Positions 2,516 to 9,901 of a stretch of 64,000 nucleotides of DNA are shown here, in pieces. Each line of letters begins with the position of its first letter. The first letter of the stretch is position 1. The translations under genes and the position numbers were made by a program. The notes beneath the pieces were generated by a model that was not told the origin of the DNA, did not search any database, and saw only the letters and a list, made by a program, of their open reading frames with translations. The DNA comes from Geoglobus acetivorans (lineage in GTDB: Archaea > Halobacteriota > Archaeoglobi > Archaeoglobales > Archaeoglobaceae). The DNA lies in contig NZ_CP087714.1 in assembly GCF_039641995.1 (NCBI RefSeq), forward strand, positions 496,001 to 560,000, in the 5' to 3' direction.

Positions 2516-3748
2516 GTGAAGTTCGCCCATCTTGCTGATGTTCATCTTGGCTACCGGCAGTATGGTAGTGAGGACAGAGCGCTGGATTTTGCCCAGGCCT
2601 TTAAAAAAGCCGTTGAATTCTCCATTTCTCAAAAGGTTGATTTCATTCTCATTGCCGGAGATCTGTTTCACAAAAAAAGCGAGATGGATCCGATAACCCT
2701 TGCACAGGCCACGACCGTTCTTGAAAAAACGAATGTGCCGGTTATAGTTGTGGAGGGGAATCACGATTCGACGTACTTCAGGGAGAGGTTTACCTGGATG
2801 GATTATCTGACCATTCAGGGGCATCTGATAAACCTGAAACCCTCATTTCATGACGGGAAACCGGTCCTTGATGAATGGGATGGGAGGGGCGGGAGCTACA
2901 TCGATGTGGGTGATGCGAGGATTTATGGCCTGAAGTATTACGGTATGCTGACCGAGAAAATTCTTGAGGACTACTTGCCTCTCGTGGAAAAGGGGGATTT
3001 TACAATCTTCATGTCTCATTTCGGGATTGAAGGTTACATGAATATTTACGGCTGTATAAGCTCAGAGAGACTCTATGGTTACCGTGATTCCATAAATTAT
3101 GTGGCTCTCGGACACATACACAGGAAGTACGTTGAGGATGACTTCATCTTCAATCCCGGAAGTCTGGAGAGCTGTGATATTTCTGAGTACTCATTTGAAA
3201 AAGGCATATTTGTTGTCGAGTATGACGGTGAGCTGTCGTACAGGCATGATGGTACATTCCACAAACCGAGAGTGTTCAGGATTCTCGAGATGGAGTTCAG
3301 GAGCTATTCCCAGTTGAGGGATGAGCTGCTTAAAAGGAAAGGCGGTCCGGGAGAGGTCGTGCACATAAAACTGAAAACTTCGACAAACATTGACAGGGAC
3401 AAGGTCGAAAAAATCGCAAGGGAAACCCTTGATCCACTCGTTCTGAGAATAGAAGTGGATTACTCGAGAGGAGTGTTTCAGGCGCTTGATGTCTCGCTGA
3501 AAGATGTTAAGGGACTTGAGAAGAACGTTATTGCAGGCATTCTCAGGGGATTCGGGTACGAAGACATCGCTGAAGAGGTACTGAGGTTGAAGGAACTTTT
3601 CCTTGCAGGTAAGCTGGATGATGTTGATGACTTTGTTGAGTCCATCGTTGGTGCAAGAATAAAGGATGCTGAGAGAGAGCTGAAGGAAGAGGAGAATGCC
3701 GGAGATGCTGAGGATGAAGAGGAGTGGCGGTGGTGGGAGGGGAGATGA
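2516..3748 (+). CDS. mre11: Mre11 DNA double-strand break repair nuclease
   Basis: A 410-residue Mn-dependent phosphoesterase with exo- and endonuclease activity, partner of Rad50 in DNA end processing. Phosphodiesterase motifs are DVHLG (D8, H10), GDLFH (D49), GNHD (82-84), SHFG and GHIH. A capping domain follows, then a charged C-terminal tail ending in a glutamate-rich stretch and EEWRWWEGR that probably contacts Rad50. The start is GTG at 2516; a TATA box 25 bp upstream suggests leaderless translation. The stop overlaps the rad50 start (ATGA), the first of a chain of four such junctions. Confidence 0.97.
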   Translation: MKFAHLADVHLGYRQYGSEDRALDFAQAFKKAVEFSISQKVDFILIAGDLFHKKSEMDPITLAQATTVLEKTNVPVIVVEGNHDSTYFRERFTWMDYLTIQGHLINLKPSFHDGKPVLDEWDGRGGSYIDVGDARIYGLKYYGMLTEKILEDYLPLVEKGDFTIFMSHFGIEGYMNIYGCISSERLYGYRDSINYVALGHIHRKYVEDDFIFNPGSLESCDISEYSFEKGIFVVEYDGELSYRHDGTFHKPRVFRILEMEFRSYSQLRDELLKRKGGPGEVVHIKLKTSTNIDRDKVEKIARETLDPLVLRIEVDYSRGVFQALDVSLKDVKGLEKNVIAGILRGFGYEDIAEEVLRLKELFLAGKLDDVDDFVESIVGARIKDAERELKEEENAGDAEDEEEWRWWEGR

Positions 3749-6402
3749 TCCGGGAGGTTTACATTGAAAATATCAAGAGTTATAAATCCCAGAAAATTGC
3801 CTTCACGAAAGGTCTGAATGCAATAATCGGAGAAAATGGAGCAGGAAAGTCAACGATACTTGAATCCATAGGCTTTGCGCTCTTCAATTCGCTCCCTTAC
3901 AACATCTCCGACTTTATAAGGAGGGGTGAACTGAAGGGAGAAATACGAATAAAGTTCGAGAGCCCGGCCGACGGAAGAGTTTACAGGATAGTCAGGAAAA
4001 TTGACAGGGACAGGACGGCAGAATACTATGTTGAGGATCTTGAACTCGGCAGAATTGCTGAGGGAGTAAAGGATGTAAAAGGCTGGATCAGAAATCATCT
4101 TGGACTGGATGTTGAGCCAGAGGTGGTTTTTGAGAATGCCATAGGGGTTAATCAGGGCAACATAACCTCACATTTTCTTCTTCCTCCGTCAGCGAGGGAG
4201 AACGTATTTTCGCCCCTTCTTGGAATTGAGAAATACAAGAGGGCGTTTGAAAAAAGCAGAGATTACGAAAATTTTCTGAAAGACAGGCTCACTGCGGTTG
4301 AAAAGGAGATTCTGAGAATTGAGGAGAATATCAAAAATCTGGAAAGGCAGAAAGAAGAACTTTTAAAGAGGAAAATGCAGGTTGAAACTCTGAGGGCTGA
4401 AAAAGAAAAACTCGAAAAAAAGCTCAATTCAGTTACGGTAGAGTTCAAAGAGCTGGAAAAGCTTGAAAAGGAAATTGAAAGACTTGAAAACGAAAAGAAA
4501 ATCGTTCAGAACACTCTGGATTTGAACAGATCTGAGCTTAACAAGGTCGAGTCCAGATTGAAGGCGATAGAAGGGTATGAAGCCGAGATGGCCGGCCTGA
4601 AAGAACACTACGAGTCGTATTTGAAATTGAATGATGAGCTATCCGGGCTTGAAAGAGAGATTGAAAAGCTGGAGAATAGAGTTAGGGAGCTTGAAAAGAC
4701 GAGAGATGTGCTTCTTAGGACTGAAGAGCGATACGGGCAGCTAAGGGCAGAAATCAGGAAAAACAAAAAAAGGCTTGAACATTATAAAGAGGTGAGGAAA
4801 AAAGCTTCGATTGAGGAAACACTGAGGAACAGGCTTAACGAGATTGAGAGGGCTGAAAGCGAGCTGAAAAGCAAGATCAGAATTATTGACGAATACCGGG
4901 AAAGACTGAAAAAACTTGAATCTGAGCTTGAAGATATCAAAAAAAGCAGAAGTGCAAGAGAACAGCTGCTTAAGGCTCTGAGCCGGCTGGGAGAGATAGA
5001 GGAGAAAAGGGATCGGCTGAGAGAGGTGCTGGGGAACCTGGAGCAGAGAAAGGGCACACTCGAAAAGACTATTGAGAAAATCGGATCAGGCATCTGTCCA
5101 ATTCTGAATGAAAGCTGTGAGAGGGTCAGGGGAGAGAGGGAGAAACAGGAGAGGGAGCTTGAAGAGATTACCAGGAAAATGCAGGACATCCGTAAAAAAC
5201 TTGCAAAGGCAGAGGAACTTGTTTCAAAGAAAATTGAGATTGAAAAAAGGATCTCTCTTATAACTCAGAAGCTTGAAAAGGAAAGTGAGGTATCTGAAGA
5301 GATTAGATCTCTCAGAGATAAACTTGAGGAAGAGCAGAGGAATATTCGCTCACTTGAAGAGATAATTTCTGAGAAGGATGATGTGATCAAAGAGCTTGAG
5401 AATGTTGAGGGCAGCCAGAAGGAACTTGCCGTACTTGAAAGACTCAGGGAAGAGGTTGAAGTAAAGGTCAGGGAACTTGCGGACATTAACAGGCGTGTAC
5501 TGGAACTGAGAAAAAGTCTGGGGGATTACGATGAGATAAGGAAAAGGCTCGATATGCTGAAAGGGATGAGACGGGAGCTAAACAGCAAAGCTGAGGGTTT
5601 GAGGGAAAAATACGACCGTTATCTGTATCTGAGCGGGATTGTAAAAGAAAAGAAATCTCTTCTTGAGAAAAAAGCGGAGCTTGAGAAGACCATTGAGAAA
5701 CTTGTGAAGGATTACAGCCATACTGCAGATAATCTCAACAATCTATATCGAAAATTTGACAGGGAAAAGTATGACATGTTAAATTCCAGAATTGAGAAAT
5801 TGAGGAGCGATATCCATGAAAAGGCAGGAGAAATCAGGGCAATTGAGAGCATGATTTCAAAAATCGAACGAGAACTCAAGGAACTGGAAGAACTCGAAAG
5901 GGACTTTGAAAAACTGTCATTTGAAAAAGAGAAGACGGAGAAAAAACTTGAATTTGTCAGAGATATGAGGGAGATTTTCAGGAAAGCCGTTCCTGAGCTT
6001 GCGAGGGTGTATTCCGAGGTAATCTCTGCAGATGCGACGAGGATTTTCTGTGAGATAATGGACGATTACTCGTGGCAGATAGAATGGAAGGAAGATTACG
6101 GAATCAGGGCGAAGTACATGGGAAGGGATATAGATTTCAGGCAGATGAGTGGAGGAGAGCAGATGGTGGCTGCTATAGCTGTCAGACTGGCACTTTTGAA
6201 GGTTCTGTCATCTTCTTCGTTCATATTTCTCGATGAGCCAACGCAGAACATGGATGCAGACAGAAGAAGAAATCTGGCTCAGCAGATTTCAAAGATATCT
6301 GATTTCAAGCAGATTTTTGTGATCAGCCATGACGACACTTTTGAAGAGATGGTTGAGAACGCCATAAGGGTGAGAAAGGAGAATGGGGTAAGTGTGGTAT
6401 GA
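3745..6402 (+). CDS. rad50: Rad50 DNA repair ATPase (SMC-like)
   Basis: An 885-residue SMC-type ATPase that tethers DNA ends with Mre11. Walker A is GENGAGKST (29-37), the signature is SGGEQ (802-806), Walker B is FLDEPTQ (D830, E831), and the H-loop is ISHDD. Long heptad-rich coiled coils occupy about residues 170-440 and 460-740. The hook lies at the centre, where pyrococcal Rad50 has CPVC, but here it reads CPILNESC (C451 to C458), a CX6C spacing. The ATG at 3745 overlaps the mre11 stop; an upstream in-frame GTG at 3724 is unlikely. The 3' end overlaps nurA by 4 nt. Confidence 0.97.
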   Translation: MIREVYIENIKSYKSQKIAFTKGLNAIIGENGAGKSTILESIGFALFNSLPYNISDFIRRGELKGEIRIKFESPADGRVYRIVRKIDRDRTAEYYVEDLELGRIAEGVKDVKGWIRNHLGLDVEPEVVFENAIGVNQGNITSHFLLPPSARENVFSPLLGIEKYKRAFEKSRDYENFLKDRLTAVEKEILRIEENIKNLERQKEELLKRKMQVETLRAEKEKLEKKLNSVTVEFKELEKLEKEIERLENEKKIVQNTLDLNRSELNKVESRLKAIEGYEAEMAGLKEHYESYLKLNDELSGLEREIEKLENRVRELEKTRDVLLRTEERYGQLRAEIRKNKKRLEHYKEVRKKASIEETLRNRLNEIERAESELKSKIRIIDEYRERLKKLESELEDIKKSRSAREQLLKALSRLGEIEEKRDRLREVLGNLEQRKGTLEKTIEKIGSGICPILNESCERVRGEREKQERELEEITRKMQDIRKKLAKAEELVSKKIEIEKRISLITQKLEKESEVSEEIRSLRDKLEEEQRNIRSLEEIISEKDDVIKELENVEGSQKELAVLERLREEVEVKVRELADINRRVLELRKSLGDYDEIRKRLDMLKGMRRELNSKAEGLREKYDRYLYLSGIVKEKKSLLEKKAELEKTIEKLVKDYSHTADNLNNLYRKFDREKYDMLNSRIEKLRSDIHEKAGEIRAIESMISKIERELKELEELERDFEKLSFEKEKTEKKLEFVRDMREIFRKAVPELARVYSEVISADATRIFCEIMDDYSWQIEWKEDYGIRAKYMGRDIDFRQMSGGEQMVAAIAVRLALLKVLSSSSFIFLDEPTQNMDADRRRNLAQQISKISDFKQIFVISHDDTFEEMVENAIRVRKENGVSVV

Positions 6403-7253
6403 AAGAGGGTAAGCTTTTTGAGAATCTGCCCGAATTCGTGAAGGCTGCAAAGAGTTTGAGAGCCGAGAAGATAAGATTCAAAGCGGAAAAGAAGATAATT
6501 GACCGTCTTGACGAATTTGAGGTGCTGGATGGCTTGAGAGTGCTGGGAGCAGATGGAAGCCAGATATCTCCTCTCAAGGAGTTTGGAATTCCGATCGGAG
6601 GGGTGCAGTCAGCCGGAATTACAGTCCATCACGGTAAAGGCGAGTTTGAGGTTAAATATCTTAGTAAGATTGTATTTGATCAGTACCTGGAGCTTGAAAG
6701 GTTCAGGCTTGAGATCGAGATTATAAAGCGGAATCTTGAGAGTGTTGATTTCGCATTCTATGATGGAAGCCTTTCTGCCCTTTATTCGTCTGAGCTGAGC
6801 GAAAGGCTTTCCATGCAGTACAGAAAAGAAATTGAAGAACTTGTAAGACTCTCAGAAAAATATCAGACTCCTGTCATAGGTTATGCTGACAGAAGCTACA
6901 TGAAAGACCTCGGTCTTAGAATCTATGATAGCTATATCCTCAGCGATTTTCTCGATATCAACGAGTATCTTCCCGCAATCGGAACGTCCTCACCACTGAT
7001 TGCCATGTATGTCAAGGTGAACCCCTCTCTTCCTGTGAGGGTCGAAATTCCCGAATGGTGTGAGGACATGCAGGACGAGATTGCAAGGGTCATCATGGCA
7101 GAGTGCAGGTTCGGTTCGACTAAAGGCTATCCTTACATTCTCGAAAGGGCGCACAGATATGCAAAGATAAGTGAGAGTGAGAAGAAGGCGTTTTTGAGAG
7201 CTGTTAAAAGCTCCGGAATCTCTTTCAAATACATAAGCAAGGTGATTGAATGA
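6399..7253 (+). CDS. nurA: NurA 5'-3' nuclease
   Basis: A 284-residue RNase H-fold nuclease that works with the HerA translocase in strand resection. Family acidic motifs are seen: GADGSQ (D52), YDGSL (D122) and GYADRSY (D164), with a conserved C-terminal YPYILERAH. The length is at the short end of the family (about 300-450). ATGA overlaps occur on both sides, with rad50 upstream and an uncharacterised gene downstream, so it should be translated coupled to the whole resection set. Confidence 0.93.
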   Translation: MKEGKLFENLPEFVKAAKSLRAEKIRFKAEKKIIDRLDEFEVLDGLRVLGADGSQISPLKEFGIPIGGVQSAGITVHHGKGEFEVKYLSKIVFDQYLELERFRLEIEIIKRNLESVDFAFYDGSLSALYSSELSERLSMQYRKEIEELVRLSEKYQTPVIGYADRSYMKDLGLRIYDSYILSDFLDINEYLPAIGTSSPLIAMYVKVNPSLPVRVEIPEWCEDMQDEIARVIMAECRFGSTKGYPYILERAHRYAKISESEKKAFLRAVKSSGISFKYISKVIE

Positions 7254-7732
7254 GGGTGTGCAGAGTCATTTCCCGGAGAGAGTTTGAAGCTGAAGGGGAG
7301 CTCGACATAGGTGTTTTTGCAAAAACCGGAGACATTCTCGTTATAAGCTCTGAGGTGAGACAGGAAGAGGATGAGCTTGGAAAGTATCTGAGCGATGAGG
7401 ATATTGAGAGGCTGAGAAATTTCCTGCCTGACCTCGAGCAGCCCAGGACATACACGAGGTTCACGGTCCTGATGGATGTGAAATGTGGTTTGACGAGGGT
7501 GCCGAAAGTGGGTGAGGAGATTGAGATCCTGAACGATGAGGAGATCAGAAAAGCCCATACTGTTTCGGGAGAATTCAGGATGCCATATCTGCCATATCTC
7601 ATGAAAAAAGACGTTGAACTGGCAAAGATTGCGATCTCGAAACTTTTCAGACTATTCCCGGAAGAGCGAGACATTCTTGAGATGATTATGGCCGAAATAG
7701 AGTACAGCGTTATGAGAGAGGTGGATTTATGA
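7250..7732 (+). CDS. Uncharacterised protein between nurA and herA
   Basis: 160 residues with no family that I recognise. The N-terminal half alternates short predicted beta strands (GDILVISSEV, FTVLMDV, GEEIEIL) with a highly acidic stretch around residues 45-65 (EEDELGKYLSDEDIERL). The C-terminal third (from about residue 110) is helical and ends in an acidic tail. There are no transmembrane segments, signal peptide or catalytic signature; the two cysteines (C4, C79) do not form a metal motif. Its ATG overlaps the nurA stop and its stop overlaps the herA start, both by 4 nt. That placement suggests a stoichiometric partner or adaptor of the NurA-HerA machine. This is inference from context only. 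Confidence 0.85.
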   Translation: MRVCRVISRREFEAEGELDIGVFAKTGDILVISSEVRQEEDELGKYLSDEDIERLRNFLPDLEQPRTYTRFTVLMDVKCGLTRVPKVGEEIEILNDEEIRKAHTVSGEFRMPYLPYLMKKDVELAKIAISKLFRLFPEERDILEMIMAEIEYSVMREVDL

Positions 7733-9294
7733 AGGTGGGCATCGTTAAAGGTCCTGCTGAGAACCCCTACGAATTCAGGTTCATAACTCCGGACAGCAAA
7801 GCTCTGAAGGTTGGAGAATTTGTTTACTACGTCCATGAGGGGAAGAAAGTCCTGTGCAGAATAACGAAGCGTCTGCCACTGAGACACTATCCCGACATCT
7901 ATCTGTCCAATCCTGACGTCGAACCGGGGAGGATTCTGAAGGTTCTGGGTCTTTCCAGCAGAGAATACGACCTTTTCGAGATGAGAGCCACGATTCTTGG
8001 ATATTACAGCAGAGAACTTGGTTTTGTCAACCCGAGAATTCCTCCGAAGCCGGGACAGGCAGTCTTTCTTGCCGAGAAAGATGTTATCGAGGAAGCACTG
8101 CTCAGGAAGAAAAAGGGGGAGCTTGGGAGTATACATGCAGGGTTTTTGCTCAACAGGGATGAGGACATACCCATAGTTCTCGACACCTCACTCACTGTAA
8201 GCGAACACCTTGCAATTCTTGCCGGAACAGGAAGTGGAAAGAGCTATCTTGCTGGTGTTATTGTCGAGGAGCTTTTAAAGCCCTACAACAGGGCAAGTGT
8301 ACTGATATTTGACCCACATGGGGAGTATCACACTCTAAAAGAGGTTGAAGGGCTGGATGAGTTCTCGGAGGGCAGTTACAGACCAAGCGTGAAGATATAT
8401 GGCAGGGAGGACATAAAGCTCAGGGTCAGTGAGCTTGATTACGATGAGATCGTAAACCTCCTCCCAAACCTCACGGAAAAAATGGAGGCGACCCTGAGCA
8501 GGATTTACAGGGACCTGTCTGAGAGGGGAAATTTCACGAGCGGAGACATAATCGCCAGGATTGAAGAGATGAAGAATAACGAGGAGCTTGCAGAGTCGAC
8601 AGCGAGCGGTTTGATATGGAGAATAAGGCGCTATCTGCTTGAAATGGAGATTATCGACGACTACAGGCACATGAGTTTGAAAGACCTGCTGAAACCGGGG
8701 CAGGCCAGCGTCCTTCAGCTCACCGAGATGAACGACCTTGAACAGGAAATTCTTGTTTCCGCCCTCATGAAGCGGATACTCAAGGCGAGAATAAATGCAG
8801 AAAAGGGGCTGGATGGAGAGAAACTCGATTACCCTGTTTTCGTTATAGTTGAAGAGGCTCATCGCTTCGCCTCGAGGGATTCAAGGAGTTATGATGTCTT
8901 GAGAACAATACTGAGTGAGGGCAGAAAGTTCGGAGTTGGAGTGTGTCTGATCAGCCAGAGACCATCGAAAATAGACAGCGACATTCTGAGCCAGTGCATG
9001 ACCCAGATAGTCATGAGGATCGTTAATCCGGCTGATCAGGAGAACATAAGAAAGAGCGTTGAGAGCATAGGCAGGGAGATGATTGAGGAGTTGCCCGGAC
9101 TTACAAAGGGTCAGGCAATTGTTGCGGGAGTTGCTGTGAACACGCCCGTTCTGATGAGGGCCAGGAAGAGACACACGAGCCACGGAGGGGCGAGCAAGAA
9201 CGCACCGGAGGAATGGATCCGGTGGAGCGAGAAAGGCGAGAGCAGAGGGATTTTTGTGGATAGAAAGGCAAGGCTGTTCTGGGATGAGGATTGA
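7729..9294 (+). CDS. herA: HerA bipolar DNA translocase/helicase
   Basis: A 521-residue hexameric FtsK/HerA-type ATPase that drives DNA through the NurA nuclease. An N-terminal HAS-barrel occupies about residues 1-120. Walker A is AGTGSGKS (165-172), IFDPHGEY follows at about 193-200, Walker B is VIVEEAHRF (E375, E376), and the sensor is ISQRPSKID. The C-terminal lid ends in a charged tail. The ATG overlaps the preceding gene by 4 nt, and the 3' end overlaps the S4/methyltransferase gene by 11 nt. Here herA is last among the resection genes rather than beside mre11. Confidence 0.96.
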   Translation: MKVGIVKGPAENPYEFRFITPDSKALKVGEFVYYVHEGKKVLCRITKRLPLRHYPDIYLSNPDVEPGRILKVLGLSSREYDLFEMRATILGYYSRELGFVNPRIPPKPGQAVFLAEKDVIEEALLRKKKGELGSIHAGFLLNRDEDIPIVLDTSLTVSEHLAILAGTGSGKSYLAGVIVEELLKPYNRASVLIFDPHGEYHTLKEVEGLDEFSEGSYRPSVKIYGREDIKLRVSELDYDEIVNLLPNLTEKMEATLSRIYRDLSERGNFTSGDIIARIEEMKNNEELAESTASGLIWRIRRYLLEMEIIDDYRHMSLKDLLKPGQASVLQLTEMNDLEQEILVSALMKRILKARINAEKGLDGEKLDYPVFVIVEEAHRFASRDSRSYDVLRTILSEGRKFGVGVCLISQRPSKIDSDILSQCMTQIVMRIVNPADQENIRKSVESIGREMIEELPGLTKGQAIVAGVAVNTPVLMRARKRHTSHGGASKNAPEEWIRWSEKGESRGIFVDRKARLFWDED

Positions 9295-9901
9295 TATCTG
9301 GCTGTTCCGGAACGGATACTTCGAAAGCAGGAGCAGAGCCAAGCTGGCCGTGAAAAAAGGGCTTGTACTCGTGGATGGCAGAATTGTAAAGCCATCCTAT
9401 GATGTGAAGGGTGGCGAAAGAATCGAGGTGCTTGAGGAGGGAAAGCCGGCAGGGTATTTCAAGCTGAAGGAGATTGACAGACAGTGGAATCTGTTTGAGG
9501 ATGTAAAGGTGGTTCTCGACCTGGGAAGCAGTGCTGGAGGTTTTTTGATGTATGCAAGTGAGAAGGCTGGGACGGTAATTGGAATCGAGTTCAGTAGTGA
9601 ATTTGAGGAATCTCTGAGGAACGTTGAGAGAGAACGGAATAACGTCAGAGTTTTTATTGCGGATGCCTTCTTTTTTGACATTTCTCTCTTGCCGGAAATT
9701 GACCTGATTCTGTGCGATTTGACTCTTGAGCCGGACTCCTCCATAAAGGCTCTCAGCAGGTTTCTTCCCAAGCTGAGAAAAGAAGGCAGAATTCTCTTTG
9801 TTTCCAAGGGGAAGGAAGCGAAATTGGATGGTTTCAGAGTTCTGAAAGTGATGAGAGCAGAGGAAAAGAGAGAATGGTACTATCTGCTTGAGATGGTGTG
9901 A
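9284..9901 (+). CDS. S4-domain / FtsJ-type RNA methyltransferase (TlyA-like)
   Basis: 205 residues. Positions 1-60 form an S4 RNA-binding domain (IDIWLFRNGYFESRSRAK, then LVLVDGRIVKPSYDV). Positions 75-205 form a Rossmann methyltransferase with the SAM loop VVLDLGSSAGGF, the acidic GIEF and a later DLILCDLTLEPDS. This matches the TlyA (2'-O-methyl rRNA) family, but the protein is shorter than the usual ~260. The ATG at 9284 lies inside herA, with an 11-nt overlap; an upstream extension to 9254 would add unrelated residues. The substrate is unknown; rRNA is the family inference. Confidence 0.8.
   Translation: MRIDIWLFRNGYFESRSRAKLAVKKGLVLVDGRIVKPSYDVKGGERIEVLEEGKPAGYFKLKEIDRQWNLFEDVKVVLDLGSSAGGFLMYASEKAGTVIGIEFSSEFEESLRNVERERNNVRVFIADAFFFDISLLPEIDLILCDLTLEPDSSIKALSRFLPKLRKEGRILFVSKGKEAKLDGFRVLKVMRAEEKREWYYLLEMV

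Follow-up and report, generated by a model that had tools for sequence, protein, structure and literature searches.

The window analysed here is a stretch of 64,000 nucleotides of the Geoglobus acetivorans genome (NZ_CP087714.1, positions 496,001 to 560,000 of the forward strand), whose assembly, G000 in our collection, is one contig of 1,903,522 bases. It carries five genes on the forward strand in the order mre11-rad50-nurA-X-herA: mre11 (2516..3748), rad50 (3745..6402), a short form of nurA encoding 284 aa (6399..7253), X (7250..7732; start ATG, 160 aa with the stop included), and herA (7729..9294). ATGA was found at all four junctions, at 3745 (where the ATG of rad50 overlaps the mre11 stop), 6399 (rad50/nurA), 7250 (nurA/X) and 7729 (X/herA). 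In Pfam searches, the mre11 product matched Metallophos (E=2.7e-18), the nurA product matched NurA (PF09376, E=1.4e-19), and the herA product matched DUF87 (E=6.4e-41) and a HAS barrel of its own (E=4e-5), HerA having kept both barrel and ATPase. A sequence-only reading of the window had described X as a 160-codon gene with ATGA overlaps on both sides inside this operon, and the open reading frame, the junction sequences and the Pfam identification of NurA, HerA and Mre11 agree with it. An ORF at 9285-9901, named by eye as an S4-domain/FtsJ-like rRNA methyltransferase type, apparently starts inside the 3' end of herA; therefore, the operon may continue past herA.

Homologues of X were found in 29 of the 57 genomes of the order Archaeoglobales, each as a single full-length copy with 31-91% identity. 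Comparison of X with its closest relative gave a dN of 0.041, a dS of 0.382 and a dN/dS of 0.11, a ratio equal to that of the adjacent nurA (0.041, 0.395 and 0.10, respectively). Since X is conserved in these genomes and has this low dN/dS, it is a real gene under purifying selection, and a chance ORF is ruled out.

When the single sequence of X was searched against Pfam, NCBIfam and the PDB, only chance matches were obtained (RPOL_N, 0.22; calmodulin, 0.03, the latter because of the acidic composition of X), and no family for X was present in NCBIfam, Pfam or PADLOC. The earlier statement that X has no recognisable domain therefore holds for single-sequence HMM searches, but profiles and structural models give a HAS barrel. 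The AF2 model of the window X (pLDDT 87.9) consists of an N-terminal beta barrel and a helical C-terminus, and a relative from a methanogen-like genome was modelled with a pLDDT of 88.7. In Foldseek searches against the PDB, the first 20 matches listed for the window X model (best E 2.4e-5, prob 1.00) and all 50 listed for the methanogen-like model (best E 2.3e-6, prob 1.00) belonged to the HerA family, and several of the HerA matches had an rmsd of 2.2-3 Å across ca. 130 columns. The top match of a broad X profile among PDB sequences was residues 15-123 of Sulfolobus solfataricus HerA (4d2i, E=1e-4; next match, 0.14), which was again at the top in a second PDB search (E=5.6e-4). In two hhalign comparisons X and HerA aligned colinearly along the domain (P=3.7e-4 and P=1.5e-4, the latter alignment alone having a probability of 52%). 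The Pfam HAS-barrel family was the best match for four distant X members from methanogens (E 6.8e-4 to 0.34); no X reached the PF09378 cut-off of 25.2 bits, which is a detection threshold and not a structural property (20.1 bits and E=6.8e-4 for the best-scoring member; no match for the window X). The sole non-X match of the X profile at E<=0.01 in 295 genomes was the N-terminus of a HerA in G016. These observations indicate that X is almost certainly a HAS barrel, and there is good support for its being a free-standing paralogue of the HAS barrel at the HerA N-terminus.

The HAS-barrel domain of X spans residues 1-113 (7250..7588); it is colinear with the HerA N-terminal domain and includes a conserved H103...Y113 block after the barrel. 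Residues 43-63 (7376..7438) form a conserved helical insertion with Y46 and F58-x-P60-D61. Of the eight residues invariant in the X family of the order, Y46, P60 and D61 all fall in this segment, which is also the lowest-confidence part of the AF2 model. The conserved residues of the family are G, Y, P, D, H and Y, and X has its own conserved H...G...Y motif. The remainder, residues 114-160 (7589..7729), is a helical part of ca. 45 residues that occupies the place of the HerA ATPase in the AF2 model. The helical C-terminus proposed from the sequence was thus seen in the model; the acidic stretch proposed alongside it exists, but sits in the loop/helix insertion, while the N-terminus itself is beta barrel. 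Neither Pfam nor the model revealed a RecA-like ATPase with Walker A/B in X, and X is not a HerA because it has no ATPase. A split domain of NurA was considered as well and rejected, since X had no PF09376 match and the hhalign comparison of X with NurA gave a probability of 0.5%.

A profile built from the X homologues of the order detected relatives across the phylum, and a broader profile found X in 42 of 295 genomes. This survey covered one archaeal phylum, so X may exist elsewhere. Several haloarchaeal relatives may have escaped it, so only within the order can a genome be called X-less with confidence. When viral contigs were searched with haloarchaeal X, none was found. Within the order, X occurred only together with NurA of the type found in the window, which was present in all 29 X genomes. 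Four genomes, all drafts, had this NurA without X; in two of them (L068 and L074) the contig stops right after nurA, and the remaining two have a completeness of 81%. Canonical HerA was present in the X genomes of the order except G043, a 68% complete draft. The genera g2, g4, g9 and g13 have neither X nor the X-type NurA; a longer NurA is present in the majority of their genomes. Three X-less genomes inspected, the A. fulgidus-like G001, G053 and G032, have an operon herA-mre11-rad50-nurA without X. Genera of this order thus differ in which of the two operon arrangements they have (L063, L065 and L076), and NurA length differs as well. The X-bearing and X-less operons of one order are a natural contrast between versions of the machine.

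X adjoins nurA in 25 of the 29 X genomes of the order and herA in 15; a position away from nurA and herA in most genomes, which the sequence-only reading had named as evidence against itself, was not what we observed. In all 16 distant genomes examined X lies in an mre11-rad50-nurA-X-herA cassette, one of which is cut by a contig end; the same order of the five genes is thus shared by genomes of methanogen-like archaea and haloarchaea. Foreign ORFs on the opposite strand separate nurA and X in two of the 16, both methanogen-like (L051, 9550-10597; L055, 6542-8161, including a PAS histidine kinase). Haloarchaeal X relatives were used to name loci in the wider collection; with the family profile, nurA was upstream of X at 25 of the 27 named haloarchaeal loci, with nothing else recognised between them. 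Searches with a close relative showed that the nurA before X is a truncated remnant at the haloarchaeal loci L126 and L131, and that a haloarchaeal plasmid copy (L130) has decayed, with rad50, nurA and herA in pieces. In broken-up operons of the order, nurA and X remain paired without herA in genera g5, g6 and g12, whereas nurA, X and herA are scattered but all retained in g11; mre11-rad50 is missing from the X-bearing locus in the examples from all four genera. Accordingly, the description of X as locked between nurA and herA applies to most cassettes, but not to the genomes that keep herA elsewhere. Co-occurrence and linkage of X with nurA, the pattern proposed for a fifth component, were both found across lineages.

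In some haloarchaea the five-gene cassette is plasmid-borne, as in Natrinema zhouii (L136, NZ_CP084885.1, 176695-201312) and strain DL31 (L138, CP002989.1), and X is annotated as a hypothetical protein on four annotated haloarchaeal plasmids. A BREX-type DEAD helicase adjoins the cassette in three haloarchaeal cases (L136, L138 and L133). Upstream of the N. zhouii cassette are genes for TerB_N/TerB_C, a BrxC/D-type ATPase (PF10923, E=2.8e-148) and an Lhr-like DEAD helicase, and it is possible that the cassette and these genes make up a composite defence module. A general link between the cassette and BREX-like genes was dropped because only three haloarchaeal cassettes show such neighbours. 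Several haloarchaea with an X cassette, including G298 and G119, have another NurA outside the cassette, and a second Rad50 is present in at least two; thus, the cassette looks like a surplus copy in these genomes. A single Rad50 was found in the methanogen-like and Archaeoglobales genomes tested. In Haloferax volcanii, PF09376 (NurA) scored above the cut-off; a review describes HerA and NurA as absent from this species (PMC7776575).

To compare the possible partners of X, we correlated pairwise distances over 37 cassettes. The correlation was highest between X and NurA (r=0.964, partial 0.81), followed by HerA (r=0.884, partial 0.33) and Rad50 (r=0.68, partial -0.27); the pairs are not independent, the fast evolution of both proteins inflates the X-NurA value and their shared history confounds it, so the comparison should be read as no more than supportive. 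In the Thermococcus kodakarensis complex, the HAS alpha1 helix of HerA and the loop preceding it touch NurA through Trp76, Leu77, Asp91 and Tyr95 (PMC12977600). Residues 43-63 of X map to this NurA-contacting region of TkoHerA when two alignments are chained (X to HerA, and the HerA family to TkoHerA), with a register reliable to within about one residue. The low model confidence of this segment is as expected if a partner orders or binds it. Taken together, NurA appears to be the main partner of X, a putative assignment that we hold with some confidence.

Since HerA docks NurA via a helix that matches the conserved segment of X, and X is linked to and covaries with NurA, X is proposed to bind NurA. 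The barrel and the alpha1-like insertion would contact the NurA dimer at the type of surface that HerA uses, and X would act as a dedicated adaptor or cap that keeps NurA poised, or inactive, until handover to the HerA ring, its binding delaying, licensing or orienting the docking of NurA. Alternatively, X may complete the NurA-HerA interface, which is mismatched in that two NurA subunits face six of HerA, a two-fold dimer against a six-fold ring. We consider the evidence for the putative adaptor or cap evenly balanced. Among the points against this role, the HerA encoded next door already has a HAS barrel and does not depend on X for one, and HAS barrels can also form rings or touch DNA. The adaptor idea of the sequence-only reading fits the fold, which is that of the NurA-docking domain of HerA, as well as the co-occurrence and covariation with NurA, although its claim of no domain does not stand.

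Other readings of X were weighed. The crown of the HerA hexamer is built from HAS barrels (PMC9960219), and X, which has this fold, overlaps herA through ATGA in the window and belongs to a widespread five-gene order; X might therefore enter the crown as part of a mixed or stacked ring and change how wide the ring is, how many subunits it has or how DNA is loaded, and not bind NurA first. We regard this as unlikely, as nurA and X stay paired after herA has left in several genera and X covaries more strongly with NurA than with HerA. It is less probable still that the helical C-terminus, which is unique to X, bridges NurA-HerA to Mre11-Rad50: most relatives do have the five-gene operon with mre11-rad50, but X loci without these genes occur in g5, g6, g11 and g12, and the weakest covariation of X is with Rad50. 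Much the same low probability attaches to X being a nucleic-acid binder of the small-barrel kind, guiding or melting DNA where it leaves the pump. For the BrxHI helicase, DNA binding by HAS barrels has been proposed (PMC12839542), but the conserved residues of X include no conserved basic patch and its insertion is acidic. Finally, that X is a functionless, decaying remnant of a duplicated herA of which only the N-terminal domain was retained is scarcely credible, being already contradicted by its dN/dS, its intactness across the phylum and its conserved H-G-Y motif.

Returning to the reading of X as a NurA adaptor, X would be the fifth subunit of one lineage-specific Mre11-Rad50-NurA-HerA end-resection machine; it has probably been overlooked as the fifth component of one form of the archaeal machinery for trimming broken DNA ends. 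With slightly less assurance than for the adaptor role itself, we suggest that a phylum-wide family of stand-alone HAS barrels is the obligate fifth subunit of a distinct NurA-HerA class, binding NurA instead of or before HerA and timing the coupling of nuclease and pump, and that the haloarchaeal five-gene machine is an accessory cassette, sometimes plasmid-borne or beside BREX-like genes.

NurA-HerA is regarded as a two-protein engine. X, a conserved extra protein with the docking domain of this engine and no motor, is a specific candidate for what is missing from its control and loading; this is testable with a few purified proteins, and relatives with and without X in a single archaeal order offer a natural comparison. 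In Archaeoglobales, methanogens and haloarchaea alike, a likely subunit is hidden by labels such as 'hypothetical protein' and by the usual account of four components. Recent work in Thermococcus doubts a role of NurA-HerA in end resection (PMC12977600). We found no description of a stand-alone HAS-barrel protein or a fifth gene in the literature covered, although the founding FtsK-HerA and herA papers of 2004 may mention one; a NurA-HerA machine that has, as a putative extra subunit, a HAS barrel without a motor is likely new here.

Compared with known systems, X shares with the HAS-barrel domain PF09378 the fold, the strand order, the alpha1-like insertion, the post-barrel segment and a colinear profile alignment, but it is free-standing, has ca. 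45 helical residues in place of the ATPase, scores below the Pfam cut-off and carries its own H...G...Y motif. With the HerA translocase (PF01935 family), which docks NurA with its N-terminal domain (PMC12977600, PMC9960219), X shares a homologous N-terminal domain and the operon; unlike HerA, it has neither Walker motifs nor a RecA-like domain and thus cannot pump DNA. The operon in the window has its four core genes in common with the four-gene Mre11-Rad50-NurA-HerA operon of thermophilic archaea. In A. fulgidus-like genomes, NurA is long, X is missing and the operon runs herA-mre11-rad50-nurA, whereas the window has mre11-rad50-nurA-X-herA with a short NurA.
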